From positions 1 to 55,548 of the IMG/VR virus record IMGVR_UViG_3300021963_000157: DNA of 55,548 nt; one strand, 5' to 3'. This document shows, one piece after another, positions 17,954 to 43,328 of the stretch. Under the pieces are notes generated by a model. That model had not been told where the DNA came from. It saw nothing but the letters and a program-made list of their open reading frames with translations, and made no database searches. The DNA is from a virus. The position numbers and the translations under genes are program-made. Within the stretch, counting starts at the first letter, position 1, and every line of letters starts with the position of its first letter.

Positions 17954-18274
17954 ATGGCAACAGGTAGATTAGGTGCTAACGATATAGCAGCAGCTACAAA
18001 TACAACAGTATACACAGTTCCGTCGGACACATTTTCGGTGGTTACCTTGTCAATCTGTAACAGAGGCAACCAAGCGGTTGCTGTAAGAGTAGCTGTATCC
18101 GCTGCTGCAACGCCCGTAGCAGCAGAATGGATCGAATTCGACACAGAAGTTTTGGGCAAAGGTGTTCTAGAACGCACAGGTATCGTTATGGACGCGGGCA
18201 GACTTTTAGTAGTCTATTCTAGCGGTGCTAACGTTAGTGCAGTAGCGTTCGGTATAGAAACACCAACAGCATAA
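17954..18274 (+). CDS. Small beta-rich virion protein, 106 aa
   Basis: Starts 12 bases after the giant fibre gene, with GGAG as binding site. The sequence alternates hydrophobic and polar residues (DTFSVVTLSICNRGNQAVAVRVAVS), as expected for a small beta-sandwich, and has no transmembrane segment. It resembles in size, position and composition the 109-aa protein at 5475. A fibre-tip or accessory role is inferred from position. No family name can be given. Confidence 0.6.
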   Translation: MATGRLGANDIAAATNTTVYTVPSDTFSVVTLSICNRGNQAVAVRVAVSAAATPVAAEWIEFDTEVLGKGVLERTGIVMDAGRLLVVYSSGANVSAVAFGIETPTA

Positions 18275-18277
18275 ATA
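18270..18277 (+). promoter_or_regulatory. T4-type late promoter (CATAAATA)
   Basis: CATAAATA matches the late consensus in 7 of 8 bases and overlaps the stop codon region of the upstream gene. The predicted start near 18283 leaves a 15-base leader with AGGGG before the ATG at 18298. Confidence 0.55.
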
Positions 18278-18297
18278 TACATTGACAGGGGATTTAC

Positions 18298-18630
18298 ATG
18301 GGAAGATATATTACAACAACAGGCACAGCGAATAATGTTATTCGCGAAATTTCTGCAGCCTTTAACGCTTCAGTCAATGATCGCATTTTAGCCAACAGCG
18401 GAAGTGGTGCTTTTACAATCACACTACCAAACGTTTCTACGCTACTACTCAACGATACGATACAAATTATCGATATTGGCGGTGTAGCAGCTACCAACAA
18501 TATTACAGTGGGTAGAAACGGTGCTAAGATTCAAAACATCAGCGACGACTTAACCATAGACGTCAATGGTTCGATCATTACTTTAGTATATACGGGTTCA
18601 ACTTATGGTTGGGTCGTTGCTTCAGCATAA
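18298..18630 (+). CDS. Small beta-structured virion protein, 110 aa
   Basis: Preceded by AGGGG and a late promoter. The sequence (FTITLPNVSTLLLNDTIQIIDIG, then NGSIITLVYTGSTYGWVVAS at the end) resembles the short beta modules that end phage fibre or baseplate-wedge proteins, where T-L-V-Y-x-G-x-x-Y-G-W is a common closing pattern. There is no signal peptide. It lies between a giant fibre gene and the cysteine-rich trio, so I infer a small fibre or tip component. Confidence 0.6.
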   Translation: MGRYITTTGTANNVIREISAAFNASVNDRILANSGSGAFTITLPNVSTLLLNDTIQIIDIGGVAATNNITVGRNGAKIQNISDDLTIDVNGSIITLVYTGSTYGWVVASA

Positions 18631-18650: not shown

Positions 18651-19619
18651 ATGCCTACATCATTTAGAAATTTAGTACAGATCAAAGGTGACGGTATCTA
18701 TGCTACTGAAGAGCATCTAGAACGTGGCCGTATCTGGGTTTATACACCAGGCAATAACTATACCAACTATCAAATCTGTTGGAAAGCACCTGCTAGAGGT
18801 ACAGCAGTTATTGAAGTCTGGGGTGCTGGCGGTTCCGGTGCTAGAATGTGCTGCTGCGGAGGAGGACTTCCTGGAAACGCAGGTGCGTATTCAAAGAAAA
18901 CGATTCGTGTAGAATCAGGTTGCTATGTCTGCGGAGCAGTGGGATTTAGCTGCGGTAACGCAGACGCTATCTGTTTCCGAGGGTGTTCGGACGCAACTGG
19001 CGTAACTTGGACCGGCAACTGCGGTACTTCGGGTTGTTTGTGTGCCCAGGGCGGAGCAGGCGGTCGAAGTTTCTGTACTACAGGATCATCATTATACTGT
19101 TGTTTCGCAGCCAACGGCTACTGTGCCCGAGGACCATACAACGACAACTGCGGAACGATCTGTAATTATTTTGGCGGCATTTGGATTGCCTGCGGTTACG
19201 GCGGCGATGTTAATCGCTGCGGCGGATTTTCATGTACAGCATTCTTAGGCTGTCAAGGACCCTGCATCTGTTCTTACACCTATCACGTGGCAACACCTCC
19301 GGGATACGTTTCTAAGTGCGGCGGCGTTGTGGTATTTGGTACAGAAAATAACAATGAATTTTCAAACTGGTCAGGGCAAGGTGCTCACCAACATCAGTCA
19401 GCATTAAACGCACAATCCCGTCAACCAACACACGGCATCCCCTGGTCGTATTGTTGGGGATTTGGCGGCGGCTGCGGCTGTTATGACAACGAAGGATGCT
19501 ATCCTGGCGTAGGCCCAGGTTATCCAGGAACACCACCGAATCCTTGTCCCGAGGTTAGAGATCACGGTCGACGAGGCGGACACGGTGCTATCCGTATTAG
19601 ATTTATAGAGGGACAATAA
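18651..19619 (+). CDS. Cysteine/glycine-rich putative fibre-tip protein, copy 1 (322 aa)
   Basis: First of three tandem paralogues. By eye it has about 30 cysteines in 322 residues, including a CCC run (RMCCCGGGLPGNAGAYSKK near residue 67), YCC, CICS and CGCYDNEGC. The frame IEVWGAGGSGA...GAYSKKTI matches the glycine-rich domain (I/V)EVWGAGGGGG...G.YSKK seen at the tips of many phage fibres, but with cysteines inserted through the glycine-rich part. The C-terminus, PEVRDHGRRGGHGAIRIRF, is conserved in all three copies. The N-terminus MPTSF(R/K/Q)(N/G)L(V/I) is also shared, without a signal peptide. Possible roles are a receptor-binding adhesin or a metal-binding structural protein; neither is proven. 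GGAAGG precedes the ATG. Confidence 0.7.
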   Translation: MPTSFRNLVQIKGDGIYATEEHLERGRIWVYTPGNNYTNYQICWKAPARGTAVIEVWGAGGSGARMCCCGGGLPGNAGAYSKKTIRVESGCYVCGAVGFSCGNADAICFRGCSDATGVTWTGNCGTSGCLCAQGGAGGRSFCTTGSSLYCCFAANGYCARGPYNDNCGTICNYFGGIWIACGYGGDVNRCGGFSCTAFLGCQGPCICSYTYHVATPPGYVSKCGGVVVFGTENNNEFSNWSGQGAHQHQSALNAQSRQPTHGIPWSYCWGFGGGCGCYDNEGCYPGVGPGYPGTPPNPCPEVRDHGRRGGHGAIRIRFIEGQ

Positions 19620-19620
19620 G

Positions 19621-20616
19621 ATGCCAACATCATTTAAAGGTCTTGTTCAGGCAAAGTTACCGTTTATCGCATTCGAAGAAGAAAATCTCGAACAAGGTCG
19701 AATTTGGGCATATACTCATGGTAATGTCCGAACAAAGATGTGTGGCGAAGTTTGCTGGATATCACCCGGTAACGGTATCGCAACTATCGAAATTTGGGGG
19801 GCTGGAGGTAGTGGTGCTAAGATGTGCTGCTGCGGTGGCGGCATTCCAGGTAATCCTGGTGCTTATTCTAAGAGAACTATCTCCGTAGCCTCTGGATGTT
19901 TGATCACAGGAACTATCGGATTTAGCTGCGGCAATTCAAACGATCTATGTTTCCGAGGTTGTTCAGAACCCACTGGCGTATGCTGGCGTTCTACAACAAC
20001 TAACGGTTGTATGTGTGCTCAAGGCGGACGTGGGGGTACTACTTTTTGTTCTACAGGAACATCAATGTGGTGCTGTTTCCAAGCAGGCGGATTCTGCGGA
20101 ACCGGCCCATTTAATGCCAACTGCGGAATTATCTGCAACTACGGAACAGGTACAGCATCATGCTGTGCTGATGCGTTCGGTGGCGATATTAACTTAAGAG
20201 GCGGATTTAGTCGTGCTAGCTTCTTTGGCTGTACACCTAGCTGTCCATGTTCTACATTTTTCCATGTAGCAACGCCCCCGGGATACTATTCAGACTGCGG
20301 CGGAGAGATTACCTATACCAATGAAAGCGATAACGGACACTCTAGCTGGAGCGGAATGGCTTTGAACGGATTCTTATACGGCTTAAACGTTGCTGGAAGA
20401 CAACCAGGACGCGGAGTTGATGGTGCTCACTCTTGCTGGACAGGCGGCAGAACATGTGGATGTTACGACGGTAACGGATGTATCCCATTTGTACCGCCAG
20501 GATTCCCAGGATTACCACCGTTTCCTTGCCCTGATGTGCGTGATCATGCCTATCGTGGCGGCCACGGTGCTATCCGTATTAGATTCGTACAAGATGGTAC
20601 AGTAAGAGATTTATAA
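19621..20616 (+). CDS. Cysteine/glycine-rich putative fibre-tip protein, copy 2 (331 aa)
   Basis: Begins one base after the stop of copy 1, so probably translationally coupled. It keeps the shared landmarks: MPTSFKGLV, IEIWGAGGSGAKMCCCGGG, LCFRGCSEPTGVCW, MCAQGGRGG, HVATPPGYYSDCGG, GCYDGNGC and VRDHAYRGGHGAIRIRF. The number and positions of cysteines are largely kept, while loops around residues 230-280 differ. That is the pattern of duplicated adhesins with conserved scaffolds and variable tips. No named family beyond the glycine-rich fibre frame is recognised. Confidence 0.7.
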   Translation: MPTSFKGLVQAKLPFIAFEEENLEQGRIWAYTHGNVRTKMCGEVCWISPGNGIATIEIWGAGGSGAKMCCCGGGIPGNPGAYSKRTISVASGCLITGTIGFSCGNSNDLCFRGCSEPTGVCWRSTTTNGCMCAQGGRGGTTFCSTGTSMWCCFQAGGFCGTGPFNANCGIICNYGTGTASCCADAFGGDINLRGGFSRASFFGCTPSCPCSTFFHVATPPGYYSDCGGEITYTNESDNGHSSWSGMALNGFLYGLNVAGRQPGRGVDGAHSCWTGGRTCGCYDGNGCIPFVPPGFPGLPPFPCPDVRDHAYRGGHGAIRIRFVQDGTVRDL

Positions 20617-20627
20617 GAGATAAAATA

Positions 20628-21596
20628 ATGCCTACATCGTTTCAAAATTTAATAAGATCAAGAACAACTGGTCGCGTAGAGGAAAACCTAGAAACAGGCA
20701 GAATCTATGTGTTCACACCAGGTACCATGTATACAAACTTTTGTAACGGGTTTTGTTGGAATCCTCCAACGACTGGTAGAGCAGTAATTGAAGTATGGGG
20801 TGCCGGCGGATCCGGAGCACAGATGTGCTGCTGCGGCGGAGGTACTCCAGGTAACGCAGGTGCTTATTCTAAGAAAACAATTTGTGTTAGTTCAAACGAT
20901 TTTGTAAGAGGTACTATCGGTAATAGTTGTGGCAATAGTTCCGCATTGTGTTTCCGAGGCTGTTCAGATCCTACTGGAGTATGTTGGACTCAATGTGCCA
21001 CTGCCCAAAACGGTTGTATCTGTGCCCAGGGCGGAGCAGGCGGCCGCGGTATGTGTTCTACCGGTACATCCTTATTCTGTTGTTTTGTAAATCAATCGCA
21101 CTGTTTTACGGGTCCCTTCAACGATAACTGCGGTGTTATCTGTAATTATTTTAACGGTATTTGGATTGCCTGTGCTTACGGCGGTGATACAAACTGCTGC
21201 GGTCACTTTAGTTGTTCAGTATTTTTTGGTTGCTTGCCACAATGCCCTTGCTGTTTCCAATATCATACAGCATCTCCGGCAGGATTTTATAGTTGCGGAC
21301 CGTATAACGTAGCAGCGTTTGGTGCTGAAGATGATAACAGACATTCAAACTGGTCCGGTCAACCACTAATGCAAGAAGTTAGTGCGTTCTCAGCATTGCG
21401 TAGATCGCCCACTGGCGGTATTCCTATGAACTATTGCTGGAGATCAGATAGAAAATGCGGATGTTATGAAATGCAGGGATGTATACACTACGCACCACCT
21501 GCAACGGGTGGATACCCAACAAGCCCATGTCCAGGTGTTCGTGACCATGCTGGTCGCGGTGGATGGGGTGCTGTTAGAATTAGATTCTTTACATAA
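20628..21596 (+). CDS. Cysteine/glycine-rich putative fibre-tip protein, copy 3 (322 aa)
   Basis: Eleven bases after copy 2, following GAGATAAAATA. The scaffold motifs are again present: MPTSFQNLI, IEVWGAGGSGAQMCCCGGG, LCFRGCSDPTGVCW, CICAQGGAGGRGMC, GPFNDNCGVICNYF and VRDHAGRGGWGAVRIRFF. In the last motif the HG of the other copies is WG. The stretch INDNCG/VICNYFNGIWIACAYGGD is closer to copy 1 than to copy 2, so the array did not arise by simple stepwise duplication or has recombined. Followed directly by a late promoter and a possible assembly chaperone. Confidence 0.7.
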   Translation: MPTSFQNLIRSRTTGRVEENLETGRIYVFTPGTMYTNFCNGFCWNPPTTGRAVIEVWGAGGSGAQMCCCGGGTPGNAGAYSKKTICVSSNDFVRGTIGNSCGNSSALCFRGCSDPTGVCWTQCATAQNGCICAQGGAGGRGMCSTGTSLFCCFVNQSHCFTGPFNDNCGVICNYFNGIWIACAYGGDTNCCGHFSCSVFFGCLPQCPCCFQYHTASPAGFYSCGPYNVAAFGAEDDNRHSNWSGQPLMQEVSAFSALRRSPTGGIPMNYCWRSDRKCGCYEMQGCIHYAPPATGGYPTSPCPGVRDHAGRGGWGAVRIRFFT

Positions 21597-22271: not shown

Positions 22272-22301
22272 TTGAACCAAGACTAGGTTCTGTGTTATTA
22301 T
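22272..22301 (+). promoter_or_regulatory. Sigma70-type promoter of the glycosyltransferase-carbamoyltransferase unit
   Basis: The -35 element is TTGAAC (22272-22277; 4 of 6), followed by an 18-base spacer and a -10 element TATTAT (22296-22301; 5 of 6). A TG at 22293-22294 one base before it gives an extended -10. The predicted start is about 22308. It differs from the ATAAATA late promoters of the surrounding structural genes, suggesting expression by unmodified host polymerase early in infection. Confidence 0.6.
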
Positions 22302-22339
22302 TGTAGTGATACATAGTAAGACAGAACCTATTTTCTTGG
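22277..22339 (+). promoter_or_regulatory. Long inverted repeat before the GT9 gene, reaching its ribosome binding site
   Basis: TAGGTTCTGT (22284-22293) pairs perfectly with ACAGAACCTA (22321-22330). Flanking this, CCAAG (22277-22281) pairs with CTTGG (22335-22339), whose GG is the beginning of the GGAG binding site (22338-22341) for the ATG at 22347. The left arm lies upstream of the predicted transcription start (about 22308). Only read-through transcripts from upstream could therefore form the hairpin. Confidence 0.55.
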
Positions 22340-22346
22340 AGTTTAA

Positions 22347-23288
22347 ATGGAACAACGCTCTAAAGCATTTTTTTTAAACGGCGGTGCGGGCCGTATGTTA
22401 TGCTCAATACCCGCATTTGAAAAATATGAACAGGAATCCGGAGACAAGGATTTCATCATCATCTGTGAGGGCGGCACAGATGTTTTCAAAGGTCATCCAA
22501 CCCTCGATGCTAGAACATATGACATATGGCATAAACATCTTTTTTTAGAAAAGATCAAAGATCGAGATATTGTTAGCCCCGAGCCTTACAGAATATGGGA
22601 ATATTATAATCAAAAATGTTCCATAGCACAGGCATTTGATATTGAAATCAATAAAAAAGGTATCAGAGCATTACCTAAACCTACATTGATTCTCAGCAAA
22701 GACGAGCTATTAACAGGTCGTAAATTAATCGGCGATGTTAAAAAACAATTAAAGAAAAGTAAAATCGTAGTATTCCAACCTTTTGGTCGCGGAATACAAG
22801 TAGTCGACGACTCGCTAGTCGACTCAACTAGTCGAAGCATAGAATTTAAAGATACAAAAGCTCTAATTAAAAAATTACAGGAAAAAGAATTTGGTGTAAT
22901 TTTGATGAGCGAATTTAAAATTGATTTCACAGATGAAAAATTCAAGGATGAAATCGCCATGCCCGAAAATGTTTCTATGCGTCAATGGGCGGCGATTATC
23001 AAATACGCAGATCATTTCTTAGGCTGCGACAGTTTAGGACAGCATTTAGCCTATTGTGTAGACAAACCATCAACTGTGCTATTTGGGTCAACATATCCTA
23101 TTAATGTTTCTTATCCAGATTGTAAGACATTCACAATTTTAGATATGGGGGAAGAAACACGTGAATATAGTCCTATTAGAATTACCATGGATGAACGTAT
23201 TGATAGAAAACACGAACCTATAATGACTATGACTCCAGAAATACAAAATTATATCATAGAAGCCGTACAAGGAAAACATAAAAAATGA
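22347..23288 (+). CDS. Glycosyltransferase family 9-like (heptosyltransferase-type), 313 aa
   Basis: Looks like a GT-B enzyme of family 9 (ADP-heptose:LPS heptosyltransferases). An N-terminal glycine-rich loop NGGAGRML (residues 11-18) is followed by a mostly alpha/beta body. The C-terminal nucleotide-sugar motif is FLGCDSLGQHLAY (224-236) then KPSTVLFGST (240-249), matching the family pattern (D/N)SG..H.A...KP.V.LFG. The usual DSG is DSL here, and length is slightly under the usual 320-350. Expected role: transfer of heptose or a related sugar from ADP to a lipid-A-core or other acceptor at the cytoplasmic membrane face. The stop overlaps the carbamoyltransferase start by 4 bases (ATGA), so the two are coupled. 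Donor and acceptor are not shown by sequence. Confidence 0.72.
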   Translation: MEQRSKAFFLNGGAGRMLCSIPAFEKYEQESGDKDFIIICEGGTDVFKGHPTLDARTYDIWHKHLFLEKIKDRDIVSPEPYRIWEYYNQKCSIAQAFDIEINKKGIRALPKPTLILSKDELLTGRKLIGDVKKQLKKSKIVVFQPFGRGIQVVDDSLVDSTSRSIEFKDTKALIKKLQEKEFGVILMSEFKIDFTDEKFKDEIAMPENVSMRQWAAIIKYADHFLGCDSLGQHLAYCVDKPSTVLFGSTYPINVSYPDCKTFTILDMGEETREYSPIRITMDERIDRKHEPIMTMTPEIQNYIIEAVQGKHKK

Positions 23289-25093
23289 CAGAACCTAAAC
23301 TTAATTCCGGCTGGATCGCAGCCATAGCACGTGGCCACAACGCAGGTGTATGTTTATTCAAGGACGGAGAAATCGTTTTTTCTATCGAAGAAGAAAGACT
23401 AACCCGTCAAAAATACGACGGCGGTCCGCTAGCTTCGATGGTTAAAATTTTAGAATACACTGACAAGTTAGATTATCTAGTTGTAGCACATACGCAGAAA
23501 TTGACAGATACTGCCGCTAGGATTGATTTCAGCGGCGATGACGTTTATACTGGTCTAGCACGTAAGCTAGGTTTAATTAGCCGTAAAGAAGATAATCACA
23601 ATCATCCTCAGGTCGTTGATTTAAGTTTTATGCATCACAAACTTCATGCTGCCTGTGCTTTTTATCGCAGTGGATTCGATGACGCAGTAGCACTAATCGT
23701 TGACGGTGCTGGTACCTTCATTCAATTAATGTACGGTAACGAACCGTTATGGGTATGGGAAGTAGAATCAATCATTGACTGCGGGTATCCTTCACAATTC
23801 AAAACTCTTTATAAAAATTACGGTGCTCGCGAGCCTGTCGCTGGCACATACATGGACAAATGCCCTTCAGATCAATTTGGGGAAGCAGGTGAGTTCCATG
23901 AAGCATGGCTTTCGGATAGAGCGGGTATAGTTAAAACCTACGAGGCTGTCACCGAATATTGTGGGTTCTCATCTATCGAAGCAGGAAAAACCATGGGATT
24001 GTTTCCCTACGGTAAACCCAACGATAAGATTCCTAAGTTGTTTGATTTTACTTCGAAGGTTCCGTTGTCTAATCGGAATCTAATCGTGCCTGCCTATCCT
24101 TCTTCTTCAGTAGTTAATAGTGCTTTATTTGATTATCTAGACGAGTTGCCGCAAGAAGGCGAAGATGTTACTAAACTTCAAAGCCGTAGGGATCTCGCCT
24201 ATGCTTGTCAAACCCAAACACAAGAACAAGTAGTTCGATTAATACGTAAAGCTGTGGAAATTAGCGGCAAGAAAAATGTTGTTATCAGCGGTGGGTATGG
24301 TTTAAACTGTGTGGCAAATTATCATTATCTCGAACAGTTAAAAGACGAAGGTATCAATATCTATGTTGAACCTATTAGCAATGATGCTGGAACAGCTATG
24401 GGTGCTGGATTAATGTTTTGGCACGCTATGGCAGATAGCCGTGAAAAGCATAAATTAGATACACTATATCTAGGACCCCAGTATACCTACGCAGAAAGAG
24501 AGATACTAGATAAAGTATCTTACGCCGGCGGGGAAGTTGTAGATGCTACTAATAAAGATGTAGTAAAATTGTTGCGTGAAAAAAACATTGTTACAATATT
24601 CCAAGGACGTTCAGAAAATGGTCCACGAGCATTAGGAAATCGCTCAGTGTTATTTGATCCAACTTTTCCAGACGGCAAAGATTTCGTCAACACTGTAAAA
24701 CGTAGAGAATATTTCCGCCCGTTCGCTGGAAGTATTATACACGAGCACGTACATGAGTGGTTTGATTTACGCGGTATGGAAGAAACACCGCATATGATGT
24801 ATGCTGTAAATTGTAAGCCGGGTATAGCTGAAAAGATTCCTAGTATCATACACGTTGACGGAACTTGTAGAATACAGAGTGTAAAGCGTGATCAAAATCC
24901 TCACTATTACGATCTCATCAAAGAATTCTACGATCAAACAGGTATTCCTATTATTTTTAATACCAGCTTCAACTTAGGTGGCGACCCACTAGTTGAAACC
25001 TTAGATGATGCTATTGAAACATTAGTTAAAAGTGATATAGAATATCTATTTTTACCCGAATACGGCAAGCTGATCAAGATTGCTAATAGCTAA
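23285..25093 (+). CDS. O-carbamoyltransferase, NodU/TobZ family (602 aa)
   Basis: Full-length member of the carbamoyltransferase family, which transfers carbamoyl from carbamoyl phosphate via carbamoyl-adenylate to a sugar hydroxyl. The N-terminal half has ARGHNAGVCLFKDGE and SIEEERLTRQK (residues 15-43). HHKLHAACAFY (about 116-126) matches the metal-binding HHxxHA motif. VISGGYGLNCVAN and VEPISNDAGTAMGAG form the nucleotide/metal core. The C-terminal YrdC-like domain has FQGRSENGPRALGNRS (about 441-456), REYFRPFAGSI and FNTSFNLGGDPLVET. All hallmark motifs are present, so it is likely active. It is coupled by a 4-base overlap to the GT9 gene and followed directly by a terminator. Family members act on nodulation factors, antibiotics and LPS heptose; the context favours a heptose or another sugar. 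Confidence 0.9.
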   Translation: MTEPKLNSGWIAAIARGHNAGVCLFKDGEIVFSIEEERLTRQKYDGGPLASMVKILEYTDKLDYLVVAHTQKLTDTAARIDFSGDDVYTGLARKLGLISRKEDNHNHPQVVDLSFMHHKLHAACAFYRSGFDDAVALIVDGAGTFIQLMYGNEPLWVWEVESIIDCGYPSQFKTLYKNYGAREPVAGTYMDKCPSDQFGEAGEFHEAWLSDRAGIVKTYEAVTEYCGFSSIEAGKTMGLFPYGKPNDKIPKLFDFTSKVPLSNRNLIVPAYPSSSVVNSALFDYLDELPQEGEDVTKLQSRRDLAYACQTQTQEQVVRLIRKAVEISGKKNVVISGGYGLNCVANYHYLEQLKDEGINIYVEPISNDAGTAMGAGLMFWHAMADSREKHKLDTLYLGPQYTYAEREILDKVSYAGGEVVDATNKDVVKLLREKNIVTIFQGRSENGPRALGNRSVLFDPTFPDGKDFVNTVKRREYFRPFAGSIIHEHVHEWFDLRGMEETPHMMYAVNCKPGIAEKIPSIIHVDGTCRIQSVKRDQNPHYYDLIKEFYDQTGIPIIFNTSFNLGGDPLVETLDDAIETLVKSDIEYLFLPEYGKLIKIANS

Positions 25094-25094
25094 C

Positions 25095-25119
25095 AAAACC
25101 CCCTTTTTAGGGGGTTTTT
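25095..25119 (+). terminator. Rho-independent terminator after the carbamoyltransferase
   Basis: AAAACCCCC (25095-25103) and GGGGGTTTT (25110-25118) form a 9-bp stem with a 6-base loop, followed by T. It begins two bases after the TAA stop and closes the two-gene unit that began at 22272. Confidence 0.85.
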
Positions 25120-25165
25120 AGTTTCTCTAAAAATCAGTTAAATATAACATACAACGAGCGTAACT

Positions 25166-26737
25166 ATGACTGATTTTACCAAATACTTTGGCACTGGTGT
25201 AAAAAATACTCTGTTTCTAAAAAACGGAGTAAACTTCTATAATAGAGGACCCTGGCGTCAAATCTTTCAAGACACCGAAATTGATCGTTGGTATGTGGGC
25301 GACTTTGCTGCCGCAAATTATATAATTTCTGTAGAATACGATTCTCAGAAAAAAGAAACAATGTCTATCCTTGTAGTAGCTAGACCCGATCAAGCCACTT
25401 ACACAGTTTACGGTCGTGCTTCCATAGATGACCCATTAATTACAATTTCTGCCACAGTTAATGATAGCTATCTAAGTTTAAAATTATCACCAATTATTCA
25501 AGGGTACGAAGGTGTACGTGCCATCTACTTCGCTCAATATTTTGCTACCTTAACCGATCTTGAAAGACCAGTCCCTTTAACATATTTGGTTGATGAGGAG
25601 GACTTAGGGGGCGGTGGCGGCGGCGGAGAAATTCCACCCGGCGGCAGCACGGGCGGCAGTAATGCCAATCTTTCTGCCATTGACAAAACTCTTACACCGA
25701 CTTCTAGCGGAACATTTGACATTGGTATTGCCCTAAAACGATTTAGGGATCTGTATCTTAGCAGTAGTATAGATATCGCCGGTGCGATAATATCTAATAA
25801 TGGAAACGGAGCTATCGAGTTGCCCGACGGTACAACCGTGGGCGGTAACGAACTTAAATCGTTTGGAACTATTTCTGTATCAGGTGAAGCTGATGTTGAT
25901 AGCATAGTATTAAATGATAATTTAACATTAATCGCCGGCTCAGGAATGACCATTTCTACTAATGCTTCAAATAGAAGTATTACTCTATCAAGCTCAGGTG
26001 GCGGCGGAACTGGCGGCGGCACATCAGCTAATGCGTTTGGTGTTGTCAGCGTAGCAGGGCAGTCGACAATTAGAGCAGATTCGGCATCAGATACACTGAC
26101 TTTTGTAGCAGGCTCGGGAATAGCCATTACTACCAATGCTACTAGTGATAGGATAACAATAACCAATACAGGAAGTTCTGGTGGTGGTGGAGGTAGCGGC
26201 GGAACTGCTACTGAGATTATTGTTTCGGAAGTCCTTGATGGCACATATCCTATGGTCATCGCTGAAGGAACAGACCCAATTACTGGACAAAGTTTATATG
26301 CCAGCTCCGGGGTAACTTTAGAAGTAGCGACTAGCACATTAAATGTTACAGCAACTACAGCTAGATGGGCGGACTTAGCTGAAAAATATCTAGCCGATCG
26401 TGCCTATGATCCTGGAACTGTTTTAGAATTTGGTGGAGACAAAGAAGTAACTCTAGCACAGGATTCAACTCGCAGAGTAGCTGGCGTTGTTTCTACAAAC
26501 CCTGCTTACTTGATGAACACTGACTTAGAAGGCGAAAATGTAATAGCAATAGCACTACAAGGCCGTGTTCCTTGTAAAGTTAGAGGTAAAATTAGAAAAG
26601 GTGATATGTTGATCAGTGGCGGTGATGGTTATGCTAGACCGTCCCTGGACCCTAGCATTGGCACTGTGATAGGTAAAGCGTTAGAAGACTTTGATGGTAT
26701 CTCCGGAGTCATTGAAGTTGTAGTTGGTAGATTATAA
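25166..26737 (+). CDS. Tail-fibre-like protein with glycine-rich linkers and a conserved C-terminal domain (523 aa)
   Basis: The N-terminal 130 residues form a compact domain (FTKYFGTGVKNTLFLKNGVN). Glycine-rich hinges lie near residues 148-165, 276-288 and 335-347. The middle has short shaft-like beta repeats (LTLIAGSGMTISTNASNRSI and LTFVAGSGIAITTNATSDRI). The C-terminal 130 residues (ARWADLAEKYLAD, RVAGVVSTNPAYLMN, ALQGRVPCKVRGKIRKGD) form a module found at the end of many aquatic-phage fibre proteins, similar in style to Peptidase_G2-type intramolecular chaperone domains. Whether it self-cleaves cannot be told. The gene lies right after the terminator, so it needs its own promoter; AGTTAAATA at 25136-25144 is a weak late-type candidate. 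Confidence 0.7.
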   Translation: MTDFTKYFGTGVKNTLFLKNGVNFYNRGPWRQIFQDTEIDRWYVGDFAAANYIISVEYDSQKKETMSILVVARPDQATYTVYGRASIDDPLITISATVNDSYLSLKLSPIIQGYEGVRAIYFAQYFATLTDLERPVPLTYLVDEEDLGGGGGGGEIPPGGSTGGSNANLSAIDKTLTPTSSGTFDIGIALKRFRDLYLSSSIDIAGAIISNNGNGAIELPDGTTVGGNELKSFGTISVSGEADVDSIVLNDNLTLIAGSGMTISTNASNRSITLSSSGGGGTGGGTSANAFGVVSVAGQSTIRADSASDTLTFVAGSGIAITTNATSDRITITNTGSSGGGGGSGGTATEIIVSEVLDGTYPMVIAEGTDPITGQSLYASSGVTLEVATSTLNVTATTARWADLAEKYLADRAYDPGTVLEFGGDKEVTLAQDSTRRVAGVVSTNPAYLMNTDLEGENVIAIALQGRVPCKVRGKIRKGDMLISGGDGYARPSLDPSIGTVIGKALEDFDGISGVIEVVVGRL

Positions 26738-26741
26738 CACC

Positions 26742-26749
26742 AATAAATA
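26742..26749 (+). promoter_or_regulatory. T4-type late promoter (AATAAATA, extended CTA)
   Basis: AATAAATACTA at 26742-26752 matches the extended T4 late consensus TATAAATACTA in all but the first base. The predicted start is about 26755, five bases before the ATG at 26760, leaving almost no leader. Confidence 0.65.
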
Positions 26750-26759
26750 CTAGGTAAAA

Positions 26760-27335
26760 ATGACAGTACAGACTATACAATTTAGAACAGAATTTGGTTA
26801 CAGAAGCCCGGGATTCCTTGTAGACAAGGAAGGCGATCTAACGGCATTATCTGTAACAACAGCAAATCTCAATGCTACTACTATAAGCATCAGTGGATCA
26901 ACAATCATTGACACTGATCGACTAACTGAAAGTATTAGAGATAGTAGTTTAGAAACTCTTGGAGTTTTACAAAATTTAACAGTTAACGGTGATGTATTCT
27001 TAAAAAAGAATAACATAAACCGCTTATCAATAATCAACGGTCGAGTGGTTATTAATAGCCTAGCAACAGGAACCATAGACAATGTTGATCTCGGACAAAC
27101 TACGCCTGGAAAAATAGACACTTATCAATTAAACGTTGTAGATCATAACGGTGTTAACGGAGAATTTGTCGCAGACGGTGCTACTATATCATTTGATGCT
27201 GCTACAATTACAGGTACTGTTACATATATAGAAAATGTTTCGATAAACGCTGCTCCCACATCGGGCGAACACGCTACTCGAAAAGATTACGTAGACAACT
27301 CTGTCGTTGCTTTTGCAGTGGCATTTGGAGCCTAA
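26760..27335 (+). CDS. Small fibre-like structural protein, 191 aa
   Basis: Begins TIQFRTEFGYRSPGFLVDKE and contains the same shaft style as neighbouring fibres (LTALSVTTANLNATTISISG, LQNLTVNGDVFLKKNN). It ends with HATRKDYVDN, the phage-fibre motif (P)T(S)G.HAT(R/K)KDYVD that joins shaft modules to terminal domains. That motif is widely seen in tail fibres, supporting a structural role despite the small size. Start at 26760 follows an extended late promoter. It is nine bases from the 2695-codon gene and probably co-transcribed with it. Confidence 0.65.
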   Translation: MTVQTIQFRTEFGYRSPGFLVDKEGDLTALSVTTANLNATTISISGSTIIDTDRLTESIRDSSLETLGVLQNLTVNGDVFLKKNNINRLSIINGRVVINSLATGTIDNVDLGQTTPGKIDTYQLNVVDHNGVNGEFVADGATISFDAATITGTVTYIENVSINAAPTSGEHATRKDYVDNSVVAFAVAFGA

Positions 27336-27344
27336 GGATAGAAG

Positions 27345-30300
27345 ATGGCAAAGAAAAAAATAGACAATTATACATTCAGACCGGGAATTAGTTTCCTCGG
27401 CAATTTGTATCCAGACGAGTGGCAAAGTTTTTATGACAACGTGCCATTTATCAAAGCAGAGTTAACAGCTTATCTCAATTATAGGATAGATATCGACACT
27501 GACGTTAATTTATATCCTAATGCTGTACGTCTATTAGAAAACAACGTTAATTTTATTAAAGAAGAAGCCACAGCTTGGATAGCAACACAAGTAGCAGGAA
27601 ATTTCGCAGGATTTGTAGGTTATACCTATGACGTGGCTAAATGTAAACGAGATATTGGTTATGTCTTAGCAGCGTACATCCATGATATTCGATACGGTGG
27701 TAACGAAGATACTAGATCAGTTGTTGGAAAGTATTGGATTAATAACGAACCGCAAGTTGATGGAGACAGGCAAGCTGAAGTTAAAACTCATGAATTTATA
27801 AGAGATTTAATTACTGATTATATATTTCCACGTGCTGCCTATACTCCCCTTCAACTAGTTGCTACGAGATACACAGTTGCCCCATCGGCAGAAACAACCG
27901 CAGCGGCACGTATTGATACATTGTCTGCCGTTACTACCACAGTTATTGCCAACGGATTGTCTTCAATGCCTGCTATTTCTTATAAAGCAGCACCCTATGA
28001 AAATTATACTTTTAATTCTGAAAAATGTCAGCGAGATTTAGGATACGTATTAGATGCTTATCTACACGATCTAAGATACGGCGGTAATGAACAGACACGT
28101 TTTACCATACAAAAATATTACGATAACGGTGTATTACAAGTTGACGGCAGTGGCCAAGCAGAAGTTGAAGGTCACGAATTTATTAGAAATTTAATTATCA
28201 ATGGTGTAATGCAGAATCAAGCAGGAACAACATTGTATCCTGAAGCAGTAAGATTACTAACACTAAACAAATCATATCTACAAAATGAAATCGTTGGATG
28301 GATCGCCAACGAAGTTCTTGATGCTACCAAATGTGAAAGAGATATTGGATATCTTATAGACGGAGTAAAATTTGACATAGCATTAGGTACAAATTATAAT
28401 GCTCTATTCTTAGGACTAGCAGAATTTAATTCTATAGACAATGATTTCTTTGTCATAGATACTATACAAAGAACAAAAACAGCTATTGCCGCATTATCAA
28501 ACGTTGCTGCTAGCACAGCAGCAGTGGCTAGAAATAATGCTTTCTTCAACGAAGTTGTAGACATTATTGAAAACGGCAGAGAAAATGCCAACGAATTAAT
28601 ACTTGCCGAACCCAGCAATGCCACAGTTAGTAGGATCGCAGCTAAGAATCAGCTAGTTTCTAATAAGAATTTTTTAGCAGCAGAAGTTAATGCCTGGGTC
28701 GCAGAACAATATCCTGACGCTGATCATGATCCTGTAAAATGTGCTAGAGATGTCAAGTATGCTATTGACGCTCTTTGTTACGATATTCTATATGGCGGTA
28801 ATAGTGCTACCTACGATCAAGCTAGATTTTTCTTCTATAGTTTTGCTAACGGTACGACAGGCATTGATCCTACTCATCGACTACAAACAGTCGCAGCCTA
28901 TGTACATTTAAAACAAGTTGTTGGACAGATAGTATTAAATGAATTTGTTACAAAAACAGACGGCAACACCCTAACACAAAATCGTACTTTTCCTGCTGCT
29001 AACTCAGCAGATGCGACAATATGTCAAGACCTAGTACAGATCACTGCTACTGTTGTAGCAGCGACAACACAAACACAAGCTAATACTATATTATCAGGTA
29101 TAGTTAGAACAACTCCCGGTATTACTTTTGCCACAGCACCTTTACAAACTGCGTTCAATGCTATCACCACAGGAAAAACTTCAGTAATTAATGAAGTGGT
29201 AGTTTTCAAAGGATATACCTATGACGCAGCAAAGTGTGTTAGAGATTCTGGTTATGTGATAGATGCGTTAATATACGATTTAGAAAATAACGGTAATGAA
29301 GAATCAAGACGTATTGCTCAAAAATATTATATTGATGGAGTATTCCAGGTTGACGGATCTCGCATTCCGGAAATAGCCAGTTACAGATTTTTACAAGAAG
29401 TAATTGTTGATTATATTTTTCCAAGAGTCAACGCACCAGATTATCAAATAGTTTATCCACAGATATTAACAGCACCGTCGGCGGAGTCAGGTGCCTACGC
29501 AAGAATTACAGAACTTACCAACGTCTTTATTAATTTCTTAGAAGATGGTCCTACTAGCCTACCGGCAGTTTCTCCAAGAACTGTTCCATATCAAACAGTA
29601 GAAGAACAGATTGTAGATACTTCCAAGGCCTATGATCCAGAGGCAGGCACAGTAATTCTTACTCTTTCAAATAATTTAGTTAATATTATTGAACAAGGCG
29701 AAAGCAGTTTACCAGCTAAAGAAGCTGCGGGATATGGATTGATTAAATTCCAAGGGCCCATTCGACTTGAAGATCTATTACTAATCACAAATACCAGTAA
29801 AAATGTAGTTATATACAATTTTTCTACAAACACTGCCGGCGGCGATCTCGTGCCAGAGTTTGATGGAGACGATGATTTTGTAGCATTTAAACAAGTTACT
29901 GATAGGGTCGTACATCTGCGTCTAAACTCAGATACATCTACCATGGACGAAACTGACGAATTACAGATATTCGTTGAATCGGCCGAGATGAAAGTTCGTC
30001 CTTATGATTTTGGTACAGATGCTATTGAACGTCATAGAGTTGCTGCTCCACAGTCCATGCTTGACGCTGACTTTGAATACGGTCTACAACCAACTAAGTG
30101 GCAGGCTATTGGTATAGCTAGAGGATACCCTTCGGTTTACGAAATTCCTGGATCTGATTTTGAAGTAACAGCTATAACGTCCGATGCTTCTTTTCCAAGT
30201 AATGGCGTAGGTGCTTCAACAATCACAGTGACTACCGCAGCACCACATGGTTTATCCACAGGTACTCCAATAACCGTTGCTGGGCTCGATACAGCTATTT

Positions 30301-33300
30301 CTGGTATCAGTCGAGCAGAAGGTGCGTTTGTTATTGTAACAATTCCAACACCTACTACACTTACCTATTTTGCTAAATCAAGAGTAGGAAATACATCCGG
30401 AACAAGTCTAAAAACTACCTATACCCAGATAAGAAAAGGCGGTTTTTACACAGGTGCTTCTATCGGGTCACCAACGATAAACTTGTTATCAAACGGAACC
30501 TCTGGAACATTTGTTACTCAATTTGATACACCATCGGCAACATCAAAATTTGCTGTAGCCAGCGGAACTATTCCTAGCATAGGATCGCCAATGAATGCTG
30601 CGACTGGCATCGGATTTGGATCTCAGGTTACTGCTGTTGTCGGTTCTGGCGGAGTTATAGTAACTCCTACAGTGCTAGGAGATTATGCTCCTACGCTTTT
30701 AGGACTAACCACTCTTACAGTTGCCAGCACATCAGGCATAGTTATAGGTCTAGGTGCCAATGATCAAACAGGTTCTTCTACGTTTGTTGAATCAATTGTT
30801 GGAACAGATGTTACGTTTAATAGACCATTTTCTGGTGCTATCATTGGTAACACTACAACATATACTGAGTTAACAGGAACTAATGAAATTTCAATTGGCT
30901 CAGCGGCAACATTTAATGTTGTTGGTAATTCTTCAGGCTACATATCTGTGTCAGTTAACACGGGTGGATCTGATTATCAAGTAGGTGATGTTCTAAGAAT
31001 TTTAGGATCGGATTTATCTGGTACAAGTCCTGCTAATGATCTATTGATTACTGTAGCTACTGTTTCTAGCGGTTCTATTTTAACAGCAGATGTTATTTCT
31101 GGAACTAGTTTAATGTCTTCAGGTAATGAAACTATTAGCGGCATTAATAACAGTTCTTATACCGCTACTAGTCCAGATAGTACATTAGGATCAGGTGCTA
31201 CCTTTGATGTAACTAGAACAGGCACAGGATTTTCTTCAGTGATTAATGCCGGCGGCACAGGATATGTCAAAGGCACTGAATTCTTAATCTTAGGAACAGT
31301 GTTTACCAGTAATGCAACTCCTGCTAATGATGTGACTATTACCGCTACACAGACAACGTCAACATTTACTGGATTATTACAAGATGCTACCTCGTTGTCA
31401 GGTAGCTCGGCACAGTTTAATATTAGTAGAATTGGTGCTGTTTATACTAGTTTAGTAGTAGCATTTGCTGGTAGCGGTTATGCTAGCGGCGAAATCGTAA
31501 CTATATATGGCACACAACTTGGTGGTAATACCCCTTCAAACGATCTTCAAATACAAGTCGATAATATTGGCGGCAGCGGCGAAATTATTGCAGCATCATT
31601 AGTTAGTGGACTAATAGCTAATGAAAATGCTCCCGGTGTTATTTCTCAGATATCTACTGCAGGAACAGGAGATGATAGAACTACTATTAATAATGTTCCT
31701 GTGGTCATAGTTCCAGGTTCTGGTATTAACGGAGAGTTTACTATCACTAGGACTGCCAGCGGTTACACTAATATCATAGTGTCCGATGGCGGTACAGCAT
31801 ATCTACCAGGAAATAGGATTAGAATTTTAGGTAGCGATCTCGGCGGAGCCAATACAACCAATGATGCTATAGTATCGGTAACGTCTGTATCACCATCTAC
31901 AGGTGCCATCACAGCAGCTACAGTAACTGGATTAGGTGTAGCTGGGATTAATCTACAATTATATTCTTCTGTAACAGTCAGTGAATTTACTACAGCAACA
32001 ATTACTTCCGGTACAGGATTAGGGTTTGGTACATTAGCTACATTACAGATTATATTCCAAGAACCTCACGGAATTCCTCCAGGCGGATCGTTTATCGTTA
32101 CAGTCAGCTCAGATAATGGATCTAACAATCATTCATTAGCCAACGGTTCGTTCTCTGCTACACAAATTCCAACTCGAAACACCATTACCTTCCAAGCTAG
32201 ATCACCAGGTGTGATCACAGGTGCTCCTATAACAGGAGTGGTGTATCCAAGACCTGATAGCTTCTTTACACATAGACCGTTCGACGGCGGTGTTCAACTA
32301 GGCACTGGAGGCCCACAACATGGCGTACAGGCCATACGTCAAAGTAAAAAATATATCCGTTATCAATCTGGTAAAGGTGTTATGTATACCACAGGTGCGT
32401 TATTCGCACCTAGCTATGATGTATTGACTATACTTGCTACGGATGTCGAAGTAGGTGCCACTATAGAAATTACATTAGGTGACAACGATCACGGCCTACA
32501 ACGCGGTGCTGTTATACGCCTTAGCGGTGTAACAACCGGAGGATATGATGGCGATTATACCGTTGATGAAATCGTCAGCGAACGAACATTTAGAATTATT
32601 GCTACGAAACGAGTAGGAACTAGAAAACCCGCACTAAGTTTTAATTGTCAAATTTCTACTTTACGCTGGAAAGGTGCTGTTGTCCGTGCTGGAGTTTTTG
32701 ACGATCAAAATGGAATTTTCTGGGAATATGATGGACAGACTCTTTGGGCTGTTCAACGCACTTCTACGAAACAGTTAGCAGGAACTATTTCTGTAAACTC
32801 TGGTTCGAACAGAGTTACAGGGCTTAACAGTAGATTCCGAGATCAGATCAAAGCAGGCGATGCTGTCACCATTAGGGGTATGACACACATAGTAACACAC
32901 GTTGACAGCCAGACATCGATGACTGTTAACCCAGACTTCCGAGGTGTCAACAACGTATCAAATGCTAAAATGAGTTTAGTTTCAGAAGTTAGAGTACAGC
33001 AATCAAACTTTAATAAAGATCGACTAGATGGAACCGGGCCTAGCGGGTATGATTTAGATATCACAAAGATGCAGATGATTGGAATCCAGTATTCATGGTA
33101 CGGTGCTGGCTTTATTGATTTCATGTTAAGAGGTTCGGACGGTAATTATGTTTTCGCACATAGAATGAGAAACTCAAACATCAATACAGAAGCTTATATG
33201 CGTACTGGTAACCTGCCTGTTAGGTACGAAGTTTCAAATTATGGTGCTACTAGCAGCTTAGTCAGTGATATTAGCAATACTGCTGCAGTAGTATCACTCG

Positions 33301-35464: not shown

Positions 35465-35470
35465 TACAGC

Positions 35471-35866
35471 ATGAGTCTGATTTTTGTTAACGGTTCTTTT
35501 GATATATTACATCCCGGACATATTGATCTTTTAAACTATGCTAAGAGTTTAGGAGACCATCTTATGGTTGGCATCGATTCAGACGATCGCATTCGCCACT
35601 TAAAAGGGTCTTCTCGACCAATCAACAATCAACGATATCGAGCACACATGCTCAAAAATCTAAAAGCAGTCGACGAGGTCGTGATATTTGACACTGATCT
35701 AGAACTCATAAATCTCGTTGCGGCCTGCGACATTATGGTTAAGGGCAGTGATTACATGGGTAAACCTATCGTAGGCCAAGAAGTCTGCGACGAAATTATA
35801 TTTTTTGATAGGCTATATGACTATTCTACAACAAAAATCATTCAGGATATTACTAATAGGCGATGA
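35471..35866 (+). CDS. hldE2-like (rfaE2): D-glycero-beta-D-manno-heptose 1-phosphate adenylyltransferase (HldE C-domain type), 131 aa
   Basis: Nucleotidyltransferase of the RfaE domain II type, which joins heptose-1-phosphate to AMP from ATP to make ADP-heptose. Residues 5-20 read FVNGSFDILHPGHIDL with the catalytic HPGH (14-17). SDDRIRHLKGSSRPIN and KNLKAVDEVVIFDTD follow in the expected order, then VKGSDYMGKPIVGQE and the closing YSTTKIIQDI. Length matches the domain alone (about 130 aa). I start at ATG 35471; an in-frame TTG at 35453 lies inside the promoter. No ribosome binding site precedes the ATG, so translation may be leaderless. The gene overlaps the kinase gene by 50 bases in another frame. 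Confidence 0.85.
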   Translation: MSLIFVNGSFDILHPGHIDLLNYAKSLGDHLMVGIDSDDRIRHLKGSSRPINNQRYRAHMLKNLKAVDEVVIFDTDLELINLVAACDIMVKGSDYMGKPIVGQEVCDEIIFFDRLYDYSTTKIIQDITNRR

Positions 35867-36581
35867 CTGTAACGATGTTTACACCTATGGGTATGTAAAC
35901 CGTATCAGTCCCGAAGCCCCGGTTCCTGTTTTCGAACCACACTATACTATCCACAAAGACGGTATGGCAGGTAATGTACGAAAAAATCTAGAAGCATTAG
36001 GCTGCGATGTTGATTTTCTAAGGGATAAAGACAGGGTCAGCGAGAAAAATAGGTTGATTGATGAACGCACCAAACAACAGATACTACGGGTAGATCGAGA
36101 TGTTGAAAGTACGCCCATTACCTTTGAAACAGCGATACCGCCTGTCTATGATGCTATCGTGATCAGTGATTATAACAAAGGCACAGTGACCTACGATCTT
36201 ATTGAAGATCTAGTTAAAGAAGTAAATGTACCGATCTTTATCGACACAAAGAAAACAGATCTAGCTCGACTGGCCGGCTGTTATGTAAAAATTAACAAAC
36301 TGGAACAAAGTCGTGCTACTAGCTATTTGCCCGACAATGATCATTTAATTGTTACACATGGGCGAGATGGTGCTCAATGGAACGGCTGGGTTTATCCGGC
36401 TGAAATAGTAGGTGATGTAACTGATGTATGCGGAGCAGGAGATACATTTTTAGCTGCTCTTGTTTATAAATTTTTAGAAACGACCCACATGCCTGACGCG
36501 ATAAAGTTTGCTAACAAAGCATCAGCGGTGACCGTACAACACGTAGGAGTTTATGCTCCAAGATTAGAGGAAATAAAATGA
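35817..36581 (+). CDS. hldE1-like (rfaE1): D-glycero-beta-D-manno-heptose 7-phosphate kinase (HldE N-domain type, PfkB fold), 254 aa
   Basis: Ribokinase/PfkB-fold kinase that phosphorylates heptose 7-phosphate at C1. LLIGDDCNDVYTYGYVNRIS then PEAPVPVFE (residues 12-40) is the RfaE domain I signature. DGMAGNVRKNLEALG (48-62) replaces the usual GGAANVA.N...LG, so one glycine is changed to DG. VTDVCGAGDTFLAAL (about 201-216) carries the anion hole and catalytic Asp. About 60 residues shorter than typical domain I. In most bacteria kinase and adenylyltransferase are one HldE chain with the kinase first; here they are separate, reversed in order and overlapping by 50 bases. Start ATG 35817 chosen over the earlier TTG at 35805. 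The 3' end overlaps the cupin gene by 4 bases. Confidence 0.85.
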   Translation: MTILQQKSFRILLIGDDCNDVYTYGYVNRISPEAPVPVFEPHYTIHKDGMAGNVRKNLEALGCDVDFLRDKDRVSEKNRLIDERTKQQILRVDRDVESTPITFETAIPPVYDAIVISDYNKGTVTYDLIEDLVKEVNVPIFIDTKKTDLARLAGCYVKINKLEQSRATSYLPDNDHLIVTHGRDGAQWNGWVYPAEIVGDVTDVCGAGDTFLAALVYKFLETTHMPDAIKFANKASAVTVQHVGVYAPRLEEIK

Positions 36582-36946
36582 CAGAAAGATTAACTGGAAA
36601 AGTAAACAAAGGTTGGGGTTTTGAAATTATATGGGCCACTAACGATCTTTACTGCGGGAAAATATTAGTGTTTGAAAAAGCAGGAAATAAATTTTCTATG
36701 CACTTTCATAATAAAAAAGACGAAACTTGGTTTGTAAATTCAGGCAAATTTAAATTGCGTTGGATCGACACCAAAGACGCTAAGATATATGAACAAGAAT
36801 TAAACGAAGGAGACACGTGGCATAATCCTCCGTTACAACCACACCAATTAGAAGCAATGACAGACGGTGCGATGGTGTTTGAAGTAAGCACAGCCGATTC
36901 AGTCGAAGATAATCACAGATTAATTCCAGGAGACAGTCAAAAATGA
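36578..36946 (+). CDS. Cupin-domain protein, 122 aa
   Basis: Single-domain cupin with the two metal-binding motifs: FSMHFHNKKDETWFVNSG (about 38-55; His, His, Glu) and HNPPLQPHQLEAM (about 87-99). The start GWGFEIIWA and the general layout resemble the C-terminal cupin of mannose-6-phosphate isomerase/GDP-mannose pyrophosphorylase proteins and small sugar-nucleotide cupins. It is coupled by 4-base overlaps on both sides, locking it into the heptose operon. It could be a sugar-phosphate isomerase or epimerase, or a regulator. I cannot say whether it compensates for the absent GmhA isomerase. Confidence 0.7.
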   Translation: MTERLTGKVNKGWGFEIIWATNDLYCGKILVFEKAGNKFSMHFHNKKDETWFVNSGKFKLRWIDTKDAKIYEQELNEGDTWHNPPLQPHQLEAMTDGAMVFEVSTADSVEDNHRLIPGDSQK

Positions 36947-37251
36947 TTTACATCGTGGATATTGACGGCACTATATGTTCTATGGAATTTGATGTCGACG
37001 GTAATGTAGATTATGCTAAAACAAAACCGTATATGGATAGAATAGCTAAAATCAATAAGTTATTCGACGAAGGACACGAAATACATTACTACACAGCACG
37101 TGGATCGCGTTCAGGCATTGATAGAACCGAAATCACACATAAACAGATGGCTGACTGGGGAGCAAAATATACTAGTCTCCAACTACGTAAACCACATTAT
37201 GACCTATGGATCGATGATAAGTCTATACATCCGGAGCAATTTTTTAAATGA
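36943..37251 (+). CDS. Small HAD-superfamily phosphatase, 102 aa
   Basis: Starts MIYIVDIDGTIC, the HAD motif I DxDGT with nucleophile Asp6 and acid/base Asp8. EIHYYTARGSRSG carries the Thr of motif II, and DLWIDDKSIHP the acidic motif IV. Only about 100 residues with no cap domain, as in small capsule/sugar-phosphate phosphatases. Its place between kinase/adenylyltransferase and epimerase suggests the GmhB step (removal of the 7-phosphate from heptose 1,7-bisphosphate). True GmhB is longer and starts DRDGT, so the substrate is inferred. Four-base overlaps on both sides. Confidence 0.75.
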   Translation: MIYIVDIDGTICSMEFDVDGNVDYAKTKPYMDRIAKINKLFDEGHEIHYYTARGSRSGIDRTEITHKQMADWGAKYTSLQLRKPHYDLWIDDKSIHPEQFFK

Positions 37252-38138
37252 TAATCGTAACCGGCGGAGCAGGATTTATTGGTTCTAATATTGTAAAAGA
37301 ACTAAATCGCAGATCTATAACAGATATATTGATTGTTGATGAGCTGGACAGCGGAAAAGAAAATAATATTAAAGAATTAAAATTTTCTAATATAGTTTCA
37401 CCAGAAAACTTTTACGGAATTTTCGATCACTGGCTTAAGGTGGAAGCTATATTTCACGAAGGTGCGATATCATCAACTACAGAAACTAGTCAAGACAAGA
37501 TTGAAAAATCTAATTTACAGCCGAGCTATTGGTTGATTGAACAAGCAGTTAAAAATAATTTAACTTTATCATATGCTAGTTCTGCTTCTGTCTATGGCGA
37601 TAGTAATACGTTCAAAGAAAAACAACCTTTGAATCCTAGATCTTTATATGCTACTAGCAAGATGTTGATAGATCAATATGTCTACTCTACACTATTAGAT
37701 TATCCCAATGCTCGCATACAAGGATGGAGATATTTCAATGTATACGGACACAACGAATCTCATAAAAAAGATCAAGCCAGTCCTATAACTAAATTCAAAC
37801 AACAGGCGATCGAAACAGGTAAGATTAAAGTTTTTAAGAACAGCGAAAATTTCCAACGAGATTTTATCTGTGTTGATGACATAGCACAGATCAAAACAAA
37901 AATGATCGATAAAAATGTAAATGGAATTTTTAACTTAGGTACTGGATCTTCTATTTCGTTTCGATCTGTTGCCGAATTGATCGCTAAAAAATATTCTGCT
38001 GAAATAGAAGAAGTTGATTTTCCTAGTAATCTGATAAATCAATATCAGAAATATACCTGTTCAGATAATACTGAACTTTATAAAATTTTAGGAGATTATG
38101 ATTTTATGACCGTTGAAGCTTTTCTTTCAACGTTGTGA
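37248..38138 (+). CDS. hldD-like (rfaD): ADP-L-glycero-D-manno-heptose 6-epimerase, 296 aa
   Basis: Extended short-chain dehydrogenase that interconverts ADP-D,D- and ADP-L,D-heptose. The Rossmann motif TGGAGFIG is at residues 5-12. AIFHEGAISSTTET (67-80) is an HldD hallmark. ASSASVYG (110-117) and YATSK (134-138) supply the catalytic Ser/Tyr/Lys. GWRYFNVYG, NSENFQRDFICVDD and NGIFNLGTG follow in order. Length is near the usual 308-330. All key residues are present, so activity is likely. It is the last gene of the cassette, and its final 35 bases overlap the converging gene at 38104-38370. Confidence 0.9.
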   Translation: MIIVTGGAGFIGSNIVKELNRRSITDILIVDELDSGKENNIKELKFSNIVSPENFYGIFDHWLKVEAIFHEGAISSTTETSQDKIEKSNLQPSYWLIEQAVKNNLTLSYASSASVYGDSNTFKEKQPLNPRSLYATSKMLIDQYVYSTLLDYPNARIQGWRYFNVYGHNESHKKDQASPITKFKQQAIETGKIKVFKNSENFQRDFICVDDIAQIKTKMIDKNVNGIFNLGTGSSISFRSVAELIAKKYSAEIEEVDFPSNLINQYQKYTCSDNTELYKILGDYDFMTVEAFLSTL

Positions 38139-41409: not shown

Positions 41410-41430
41410 AGTCATATATTTACCGCTGTA

Positions 41431-41437: not shown

Positions 41438-41442
41438 CTAGC

Positions 41443-43302: not shown

Positions 43303-43328
43303 GATTCAAACCATCAGGAGACAACGGA

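Follow-up and report, generated by a model that had tools for sequence, protein, structure and literature searches.

In the viral DNA analysed here, a glycosyltransferase (GT) gene is coupled to a carbamoyltransferase (CT) gene within the fibre locus. The window, that is, the whole stretch of DNA analysed, is a 55.5-kb viral record (IMGVR_UViG_3300021963_000157; 55,548 nt), in which the pair and the terminator behind it are arranged as follows.

22347..23288, + strand: GT9-fold protein, predicted heptosyltransferase (phrog_8954), 313 aa with an ATG start; assigned from Pfam, phrog, AlphaFold and fold search
23285..25093, + strand: NodU/TobZ-type O-carbamoyltransferase (phrog_1601), 602 aa; assigned from Pfam Carbam_trans_N/C and PDB relatives
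25095..25123, + strand: intrinsic terminator after CT, 10 pairs with a T-rich tail, beginning two bases past the stop codon

An earlier note on this DNA had taken the pair for a self-contained 'moron'-type cargo unit, inserted between fibre genes, with its own sigma70-type promoter and a surface sugar as its target. The explanation that we favour, with somewhat better than even confidence, is a different one: a phage-encoded heptose pathway lies around the fibre locus, the pair transfers and carbamoylates heptose, likeliest onto a fibre protein, and an insulating hairpin with a promoter nested in it precedes the pair. Much of the earlier description was borne out. The two open reading frames (ORFs) share an ATGA overlap, a strong terminator-like hairpin starts two bases past the last stop, and the CT has its family motifs, with both Pfam halves (PF02543 and PF16861) far above cut-off. 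Late-type TAAATA motifs lie upstream of several neighbouring and structural genes (11896, 18271, 21593, 25138 and 26743); T4-like phages likewise have TAAATA late-type boxes before structural genes (PMC2984593).

The CT contains the metal motif HxxxH...D (HHKLH...VDG, aligned with 7xb6), and its PDB relatives include TobZ and GdmN. For the GT, a sequence search of the family against the PDB returned nothing useful, and only the fold search was informative: with an AlphaFold model of pLDDT 93, the 30 best PDB matches were all GT9 enzymes (WaaF, TibC, WaaC and a Veillonella family-9 GT), with TM values of about 0.5-0.65. The GT model fits ADP-heptose heptosyltransferases best. Its GCDSLGQH segment aligns, weakly, with SVDTGLSH of WaaC, a nucleotide-sugar motif of the D(S/T)GxxH type, and residues D228, S229, G231 and H233 are invariant in the family. 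The search for cellular homologues of the GT gave ten matches only, all on contigs of metagenome-assembled genomes, at least three of which carry the same phage-like cassette; these contigs are therefore read as viral and give no cellular context.

Where would the sugar come from? About 10 kb downstream of the pair lie the other genes of a predicted heptose pathway.

35472..35866, + strand: HldE-C-like heptose-1-phosphate adenylyltransferase (phrog_7878); TIGR02199 is the best NCBIfam match, below cut-off
35805..36581, + strand: HldE-N-like heptose-7-phosphate kinase (PfkB; PF00294); TIGR02198 is the best NCBIfam match, below cut-off
36578..36946, + strand: cupin protein, from profile matches
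36943..37251, + strand: small HAD-type phosphatase, candidate GmhB stand-in; TIGR01689 (EcbF-BcbF) and HAD models, all below cut-off
37248..38138, + strand: HldD, ADP-glyceromanno-heptose 6-epimerase; TIGR02197, above cut-off

We placed the adenylyltransferase start at the ATG at 35472; the ORF list had begun it at TTG 35453. HldD scored 281 bits against TIGR02197 (cut-off 274.6) and shares 42% identity with HldD/RfaD of E. coli. The HldE-type kinase, the HAD phosphatase, the HldE-type adenylyltransferase and the HldD epimerase would together make ADP-heptose, with host GmhA supplying the starting heptose-7-phosphate. The GT9-fold enzyme would then transfer the heptose and the NodU/TobZ-type enzyme would carbamoylate it.

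The gene order supports the assignment of these genes to one set. In the window the order is split, after CT, by three fibre genes (25166-35432). In four distant relatives (contigs are designated L with a number; L067, L074, L079 and L081) GT, CT, HldE-C, HldE-N, cupin, HAD and HldD are contiguous; L069 has the same order with a GT truncated where the contig stops, in L061 the HAD gene has no match, and L075 follows the order as far as the contig extends. The cyanophages P-SSM2, S-CAM1 and Sf-FS3 have the same gene set beside fibre genes. Among 50,697 phage records, 23 carry the GT (at least 38% identity) and 34 carry the kinase; 22 of the 23 have both, and the remaining one is a 4-kb fragment; this does not amount to 22 independent cases, because many of the records are isolates of the same species. 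The window set resembles the 'LPS' (lipopolysaccharide) cluster T4-GC 302-308 of P-SSM2 and other cyanophages, in which GT, CT, nucleotidyltransferase, kinase, HAD, cupin and HldD genes lie beside fibre genes (PMC3037559); it differs in being split by the three fibre genes, and the cyanophage GT is annotated as hypothetical only. Tang et al. found that viruses carry functional ADP-heptose biosynthesis enzymes, reportedly with no phosphatase in viruses (commentary PMC11461863). The window cassette differs in that it includes a candidate phosphatase, the small HAD protein, and is adjoined by transfer enzymes.

Several results weigh against this assignment of functions. The kinase reached 125.6 of the 345 bits, and the adenylyltransferase 124.8 of the 181.5 bits, that are the equivalog cut-offs of the HldE models, and the HAD phosphatase match is weak and also below its equivalog cut-off. 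The GT is a marginal match to Pfam Glyco_transf_9 (PF01075; 22.8 bits, cut-off 22), covering only residues 172-253, in the C-terminal half. In 54 sequences it has an invariant Arg16 (GAGR16MLCSIPA) where WaaC has Asp13 (MGD13VLHTLPA), in an alignment made by eye, as hhalign did not cover this part. Finally, a search of six large relative contigs, possibly incomplete ones, revealed no gmhA; the supply of heptose-7-phosphate by the host is assumed for this reason. As a prediction from sequence the heptose pathway is nevertheless well supported. The surface-sugar target proposed earlier for the GT9-like gene thereby gains a heptose theme, while the acceptor remains a proposal.

Two further observations concern annotation in the cyanophages. 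The P-SSM2 gene PSSM2_311 (13027-13371 in L256), annotated as 'phosphoheptose isomerase', is 43% identical to the window HAD phosphatase at 36943-37251 and is probably misnamed. In Sf-FS3 the gene immediately before GT (L255, 8305-8937) carries the annotation prolyl 4-hydroxylase (2OG-Fe(II) oxygenase), and further genes of this kind stand among its heptose genes; window gene 21616, in the same place, had no such match.

We infer the enzyme activities and the acceptor, for which the likeliest candidate would be a fibre protein from the same locus and the main alternative the host surface. Two known systems illustrate the choice. TibC, using ADP-heptose, modifies an adhesive protein whose gene lies close by (PMC4358343), and the window GT shares the GT9-type fold of the TibC/Aah autotransporter heptosyltransferases; unlike TibC, it has 313 aa compared with chains of about 370-390 residues, the identity is ~12%, and a protein acceptor is a proposal only. 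WapO is a carbamoyltransferase that acts on heptose laid down by heptosyltransferases, on HepII of the Pseudomonas LPS core (PMC8005017). The window pair, a predicted heptosyltransferase and a carbamoyltransferase, is of the same kind, but its genes sit with fibres whereas the WapO acceptor is the LPS core.

The alternative that survives best retains all the enzymes and changes the acceptor to a host surface glycan, so that carbamoyl-heptose on LPS or another polysaccharide would block superinfection or alter receptors. It agrees with a GT fold that resembles not only TibC but also WaaF and WaaC, with carbamoyl-heptose being a known LPS group in Pseudomonas, and with the interpretation of the cyanophage heptose genes as LPS genes in PMC3037559. 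However, all informative relatives have the genes within the fibre locus, and heptose is reportedly missing from cyanobacterial LPS (PMC4515613), a point against a plain LPS role in those relatives that are cyanophages. These two points together lean towards a fibre acceptor, at least for cyanophages. We therefore rank a fibre protein ahead of the host surface, short of proof, and consider the host-glycan explanation somewhat unlikely. The use of the cyanophage sugar ('LPS') genes has been described as unknown, possibly as stuffer DNA (PMC3037559). The present comparison places the heptose part of the set, together with a heptosyltransferase-fold enzyme and CT, firmly in the fibre locus of many uncultivated phages too, and with this linkage the role of the heptose genes can be tested in isolates, for example P-SSM2 and S-CAM1.

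How is the pair expressed? A long hairpin, overlooked in the earlier note, covers the region in which that note had placed a promoter.

22277..22339, + strand: putative insulating hairpin, 63 bases; from RNA fold, covariation and covariance model R1
22310..22317, + strand: TACATAGT, the window copy of a TATATAAT-like box, lying 3' of the hairpin apex; candidate promoter element, either a -10 or a late-type one
22329..22336, + strand: U-rich tract (TATTTTCT) after the main stem, terminator-like
22338..22341, + strand: Shine-Dalgarno GGAG of the GT gene, its first two bases paired within the outer stem of the hairpin

The hairpin consists of an outer helix (22277-22282 with 22334-22339), a main stem (22284-22293 with 22321-22330) and an AT-rich upper stem (22295-22301 with 22313-22319). 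Its fold has -32 kcal/mol, compared with -16.4 +/- 2.9 in shuffles (z = -5.5). We collected relatives by searches with both proteins, which yielded 91 non-redundant upstream regions (a near-DNA search of phage records with the window gave no match). In 71 of the 91 regions the GT gene precedes CT, and 36 of these 71 have z below -4.5; the other 20, mostly upstream of a second GT after CT, do not reach even z -3. By inspection, 32 non-redundant loci (window included) were assigned to the same hairpin, each before the same gene, GT, with z from -4.6 to -8.9. Three groups of relatives were aligned separately, and pairs changed on both sides numbered 5/23, 7/23 and 6/9. The stem sequences vary widely and the pairing stays: 93-100% of cells are paired, compared with 4-64% when the partner is slid. 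Covariance model R1 found one strong copy in the window. It matched in nine of ten large relative contigs, with the best match in each before the GT gene; contig L108 gave no R1 match and has a plain terminator instead, as does the near-identical L107. Weak extra matches (E 0.01-0.1) were two ordinary terminators and, as the third, the same hairpin on the opposite strand. An Rfam search of the window matched no known RNA family. On the other side of the balance stand many more distant relatives that are without the hairpin.

Two features recur in the hairpins themselves. The 8 bases after the stem contain 4-8 T in 32/32, as in intrinsic terminators, and the TATATAAT-like box is kept on one side of the apex. 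The mean distance to TATATAAT is 0.88 on the 3' side; on the 5' side the reverse complement gives 2.44, and shuffles give 2.84, the last comparison being optimistic since the motif was picked after inspection. For this reason, and because the sequences are related, the P values of the box are overstated, and the contrast between the two sides is the more reliable evidence. In other relatives the pieces come apart. L107, L109, L037 and L044 have a plain terminator and then TATATAAT, TATATATT or TATATAGT in tandem; L120, L132 and L137 keep the box with no hairpin of the window type; and several marine relatives have TATAAGTA in place of the box. Read by eye from the sequence, the cultured S-CAM1 has a terminator and then ATAAATA before GT, and in P-SSM2 (L256, upstream of 8998) a TTGACT-17-TATAAT overlaps a terminator-like hairpin before GT. 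As the terminator and the box occur separately or in tandem in relatives, we prefer the view that an insulating terminator, together with a start of its own, separates the pair from the fibre genes upstream. The hairpin would be mainly a terminator-like insulator against read-through from those genes, and the promoter near its apex would start an mRNA without the 5' arm. We infer the start site, the termination and the timing; separate expression of the pair is supported by the sequence comparison.

A simpler explanation is that the hairpin is only the intrinsic terminator of the upstream fibre genes, with the box a by-product of AT-rich pairing and the pair expressed by read-through or from another promoter. 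The U-rich tail in all 32 hairpins is as expected from it, as are the plain terminators upstream in L037, L044, L062, L107 and L109, and it also gains from the lack of support for Shine-Dalgarno masking (see below). A by-product of pairing does not account for a box kept on the 3' side when its complement is not kept on the 5' side, or for a box retained in the three contigs that lack a hairpin of the window type. Moreover, an efficient terminator would leave the pair with no mRNA unless transcription started inside or after the hairpin. We regard this explanation as doubtful. About equally tentative, and to be read as an extension of the insulator-plus-start arrangement, is the fuller proposal that the phage puts carbamoylated heptose on its own tail fibres and that the nested terminator and promoter decouple the timing, the enzymes being made before or apart from their substrates.

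Could the hairpin instead be a translational switch of the T4 gene e type, which hides the Shine-Dalgarno sequence on read-through mRNA and terminates little? Genes e, soc, 49 and I-TevI of T4 have a promoter within a long hairpin (PMC3014915, PMC2988022) and by analogy are the best precedent for such an arrangement. As in these genes, the window has a promoter-like box in a long-hairpin region just before a start codon, from which mRNAs would lack the 5' arm, and as in the gene e type, a stable hairpin overlaps the ribosome-binding region, its outer arm pairing part of the Shine-Dalgarno sequence. Unlike the T4 systems, the window stem is followed by a terminator-like U-rich tract, the box is TATATAAT-like (TACATAGT) with no T4-type late promoter (TATAAATA) in the hairpin, the upstream genes are late fibre genes, and the product is a sugar transferase. 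Masking itself was not supported, which also tells against a part of it in the arrangement that we prefer: without the 5' arm, the opening cost fell from 7.7 to 3.75 kcal/mol in hairpin loci and from 6.9 to 3.1 in hairpin-less controls, so that opening energy does not separate the two, and the outer helix that meets the Shine-Dalgarno sequence has no pair changed on both sides. Masking was therefore rejected as the main role, and we consider a translational switch quite unlikely. As an insulating terminator with its own start, the nested arrangement is a conserved, compact expression element, and P-SSM2 is an isolate in which it could be examined.

The promoter named in the earlier note is the following site.

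22272..22301, + strand: TTGAAC-18-TATTAT with TG before the -10, overlapping the 5' arm of the hairpin

The site is present; taken alone it is no better than chance, and it lies inside the long hairpin. Promoter-like sites of at least that quality (9 of 12) number 30 in the 17-30 kb region, compared with 33.5 expected in shuffles. A TTGA-17/18-T(A/T)TTAT pair is found in only 10/32 hairpin-bearing loci, and TTGAAC-18-TATTAT is kept only in nearer relatives, the others having late-type or near-late boxes (ATAAATA, TATAAGTA). The claim of separate transcription is supported by comparison; an early sigma70 start is not established, and we keep this site only as a possibility for the nearer relatives.

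Two perfect TTGACA/TATAAT sites were also found, compared with about 0.15 expected per window in block shuffles. One, TTGACA-17-TATAAT at 28372-28400, lies inside the 2695-aa fibre gene 27345, where no gene start fits. The other, TTGACA-16-TATAAT at 35437-35470, ends 7 bases before the HldE-C ATG, has its -10 inside the palindrome GCTGTATAATTACAGC, and would give a nearly leaderless mRNA. Related contigs L312 and L322 keep TTGACA and are without TATAAT, and the site was rejected as an early promoter of HldE-C.

Finally, we asked whether the pair had been acquired as cargo. Neighbour gene 18298, used as a query, retrieved 40 loci that contain the 17954-18298 pair. GT and CT follow downstream, at the same place in the fibre locus, in 35 of them, that is, in all 35 contigs that reach far enough, as the other five end before that place; no empty site was seen among these loci. 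Although the window and its close relatives have a promoter-like site and a terminator for the pair (the latter in many close relatives, with 12/40 non-redundant loci), acquisition of a moron at a precise site is very improbable, because all 35 informative contigs carry the pair with no empty site and its partner genes are elsewhere in the locus. Nor is the unit self-contained, because the pair supplies only the first half of a pathway that has its other half at 35472-38138. Marine relatives often have a second GT gene after CT: in L047, L049, L058, L059, L063 and L076 it overlaps the CT stop or comes straight after it, and it shares ~50-56% identity with the GT of the window.

Elsewhere in the window, 18651-21596 holds three tandem paralogues (phrog_4205), strikingly rich in Cys and Gly and with C-terminal motifs of the RGGHGAIRIRF type, which are possible adhesin tips. 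The plus-strand structural region is broken at 38104-41451 by a minus-strand gene block that includes a relative of tail-sheath or sheath-stabiliser proteins (phrog_11196). The sheath-like protein at 43230-46688 shares ~40% identity with tail sheaths from jumbo myoviruses, Phosso and Atu_ph07 among them.

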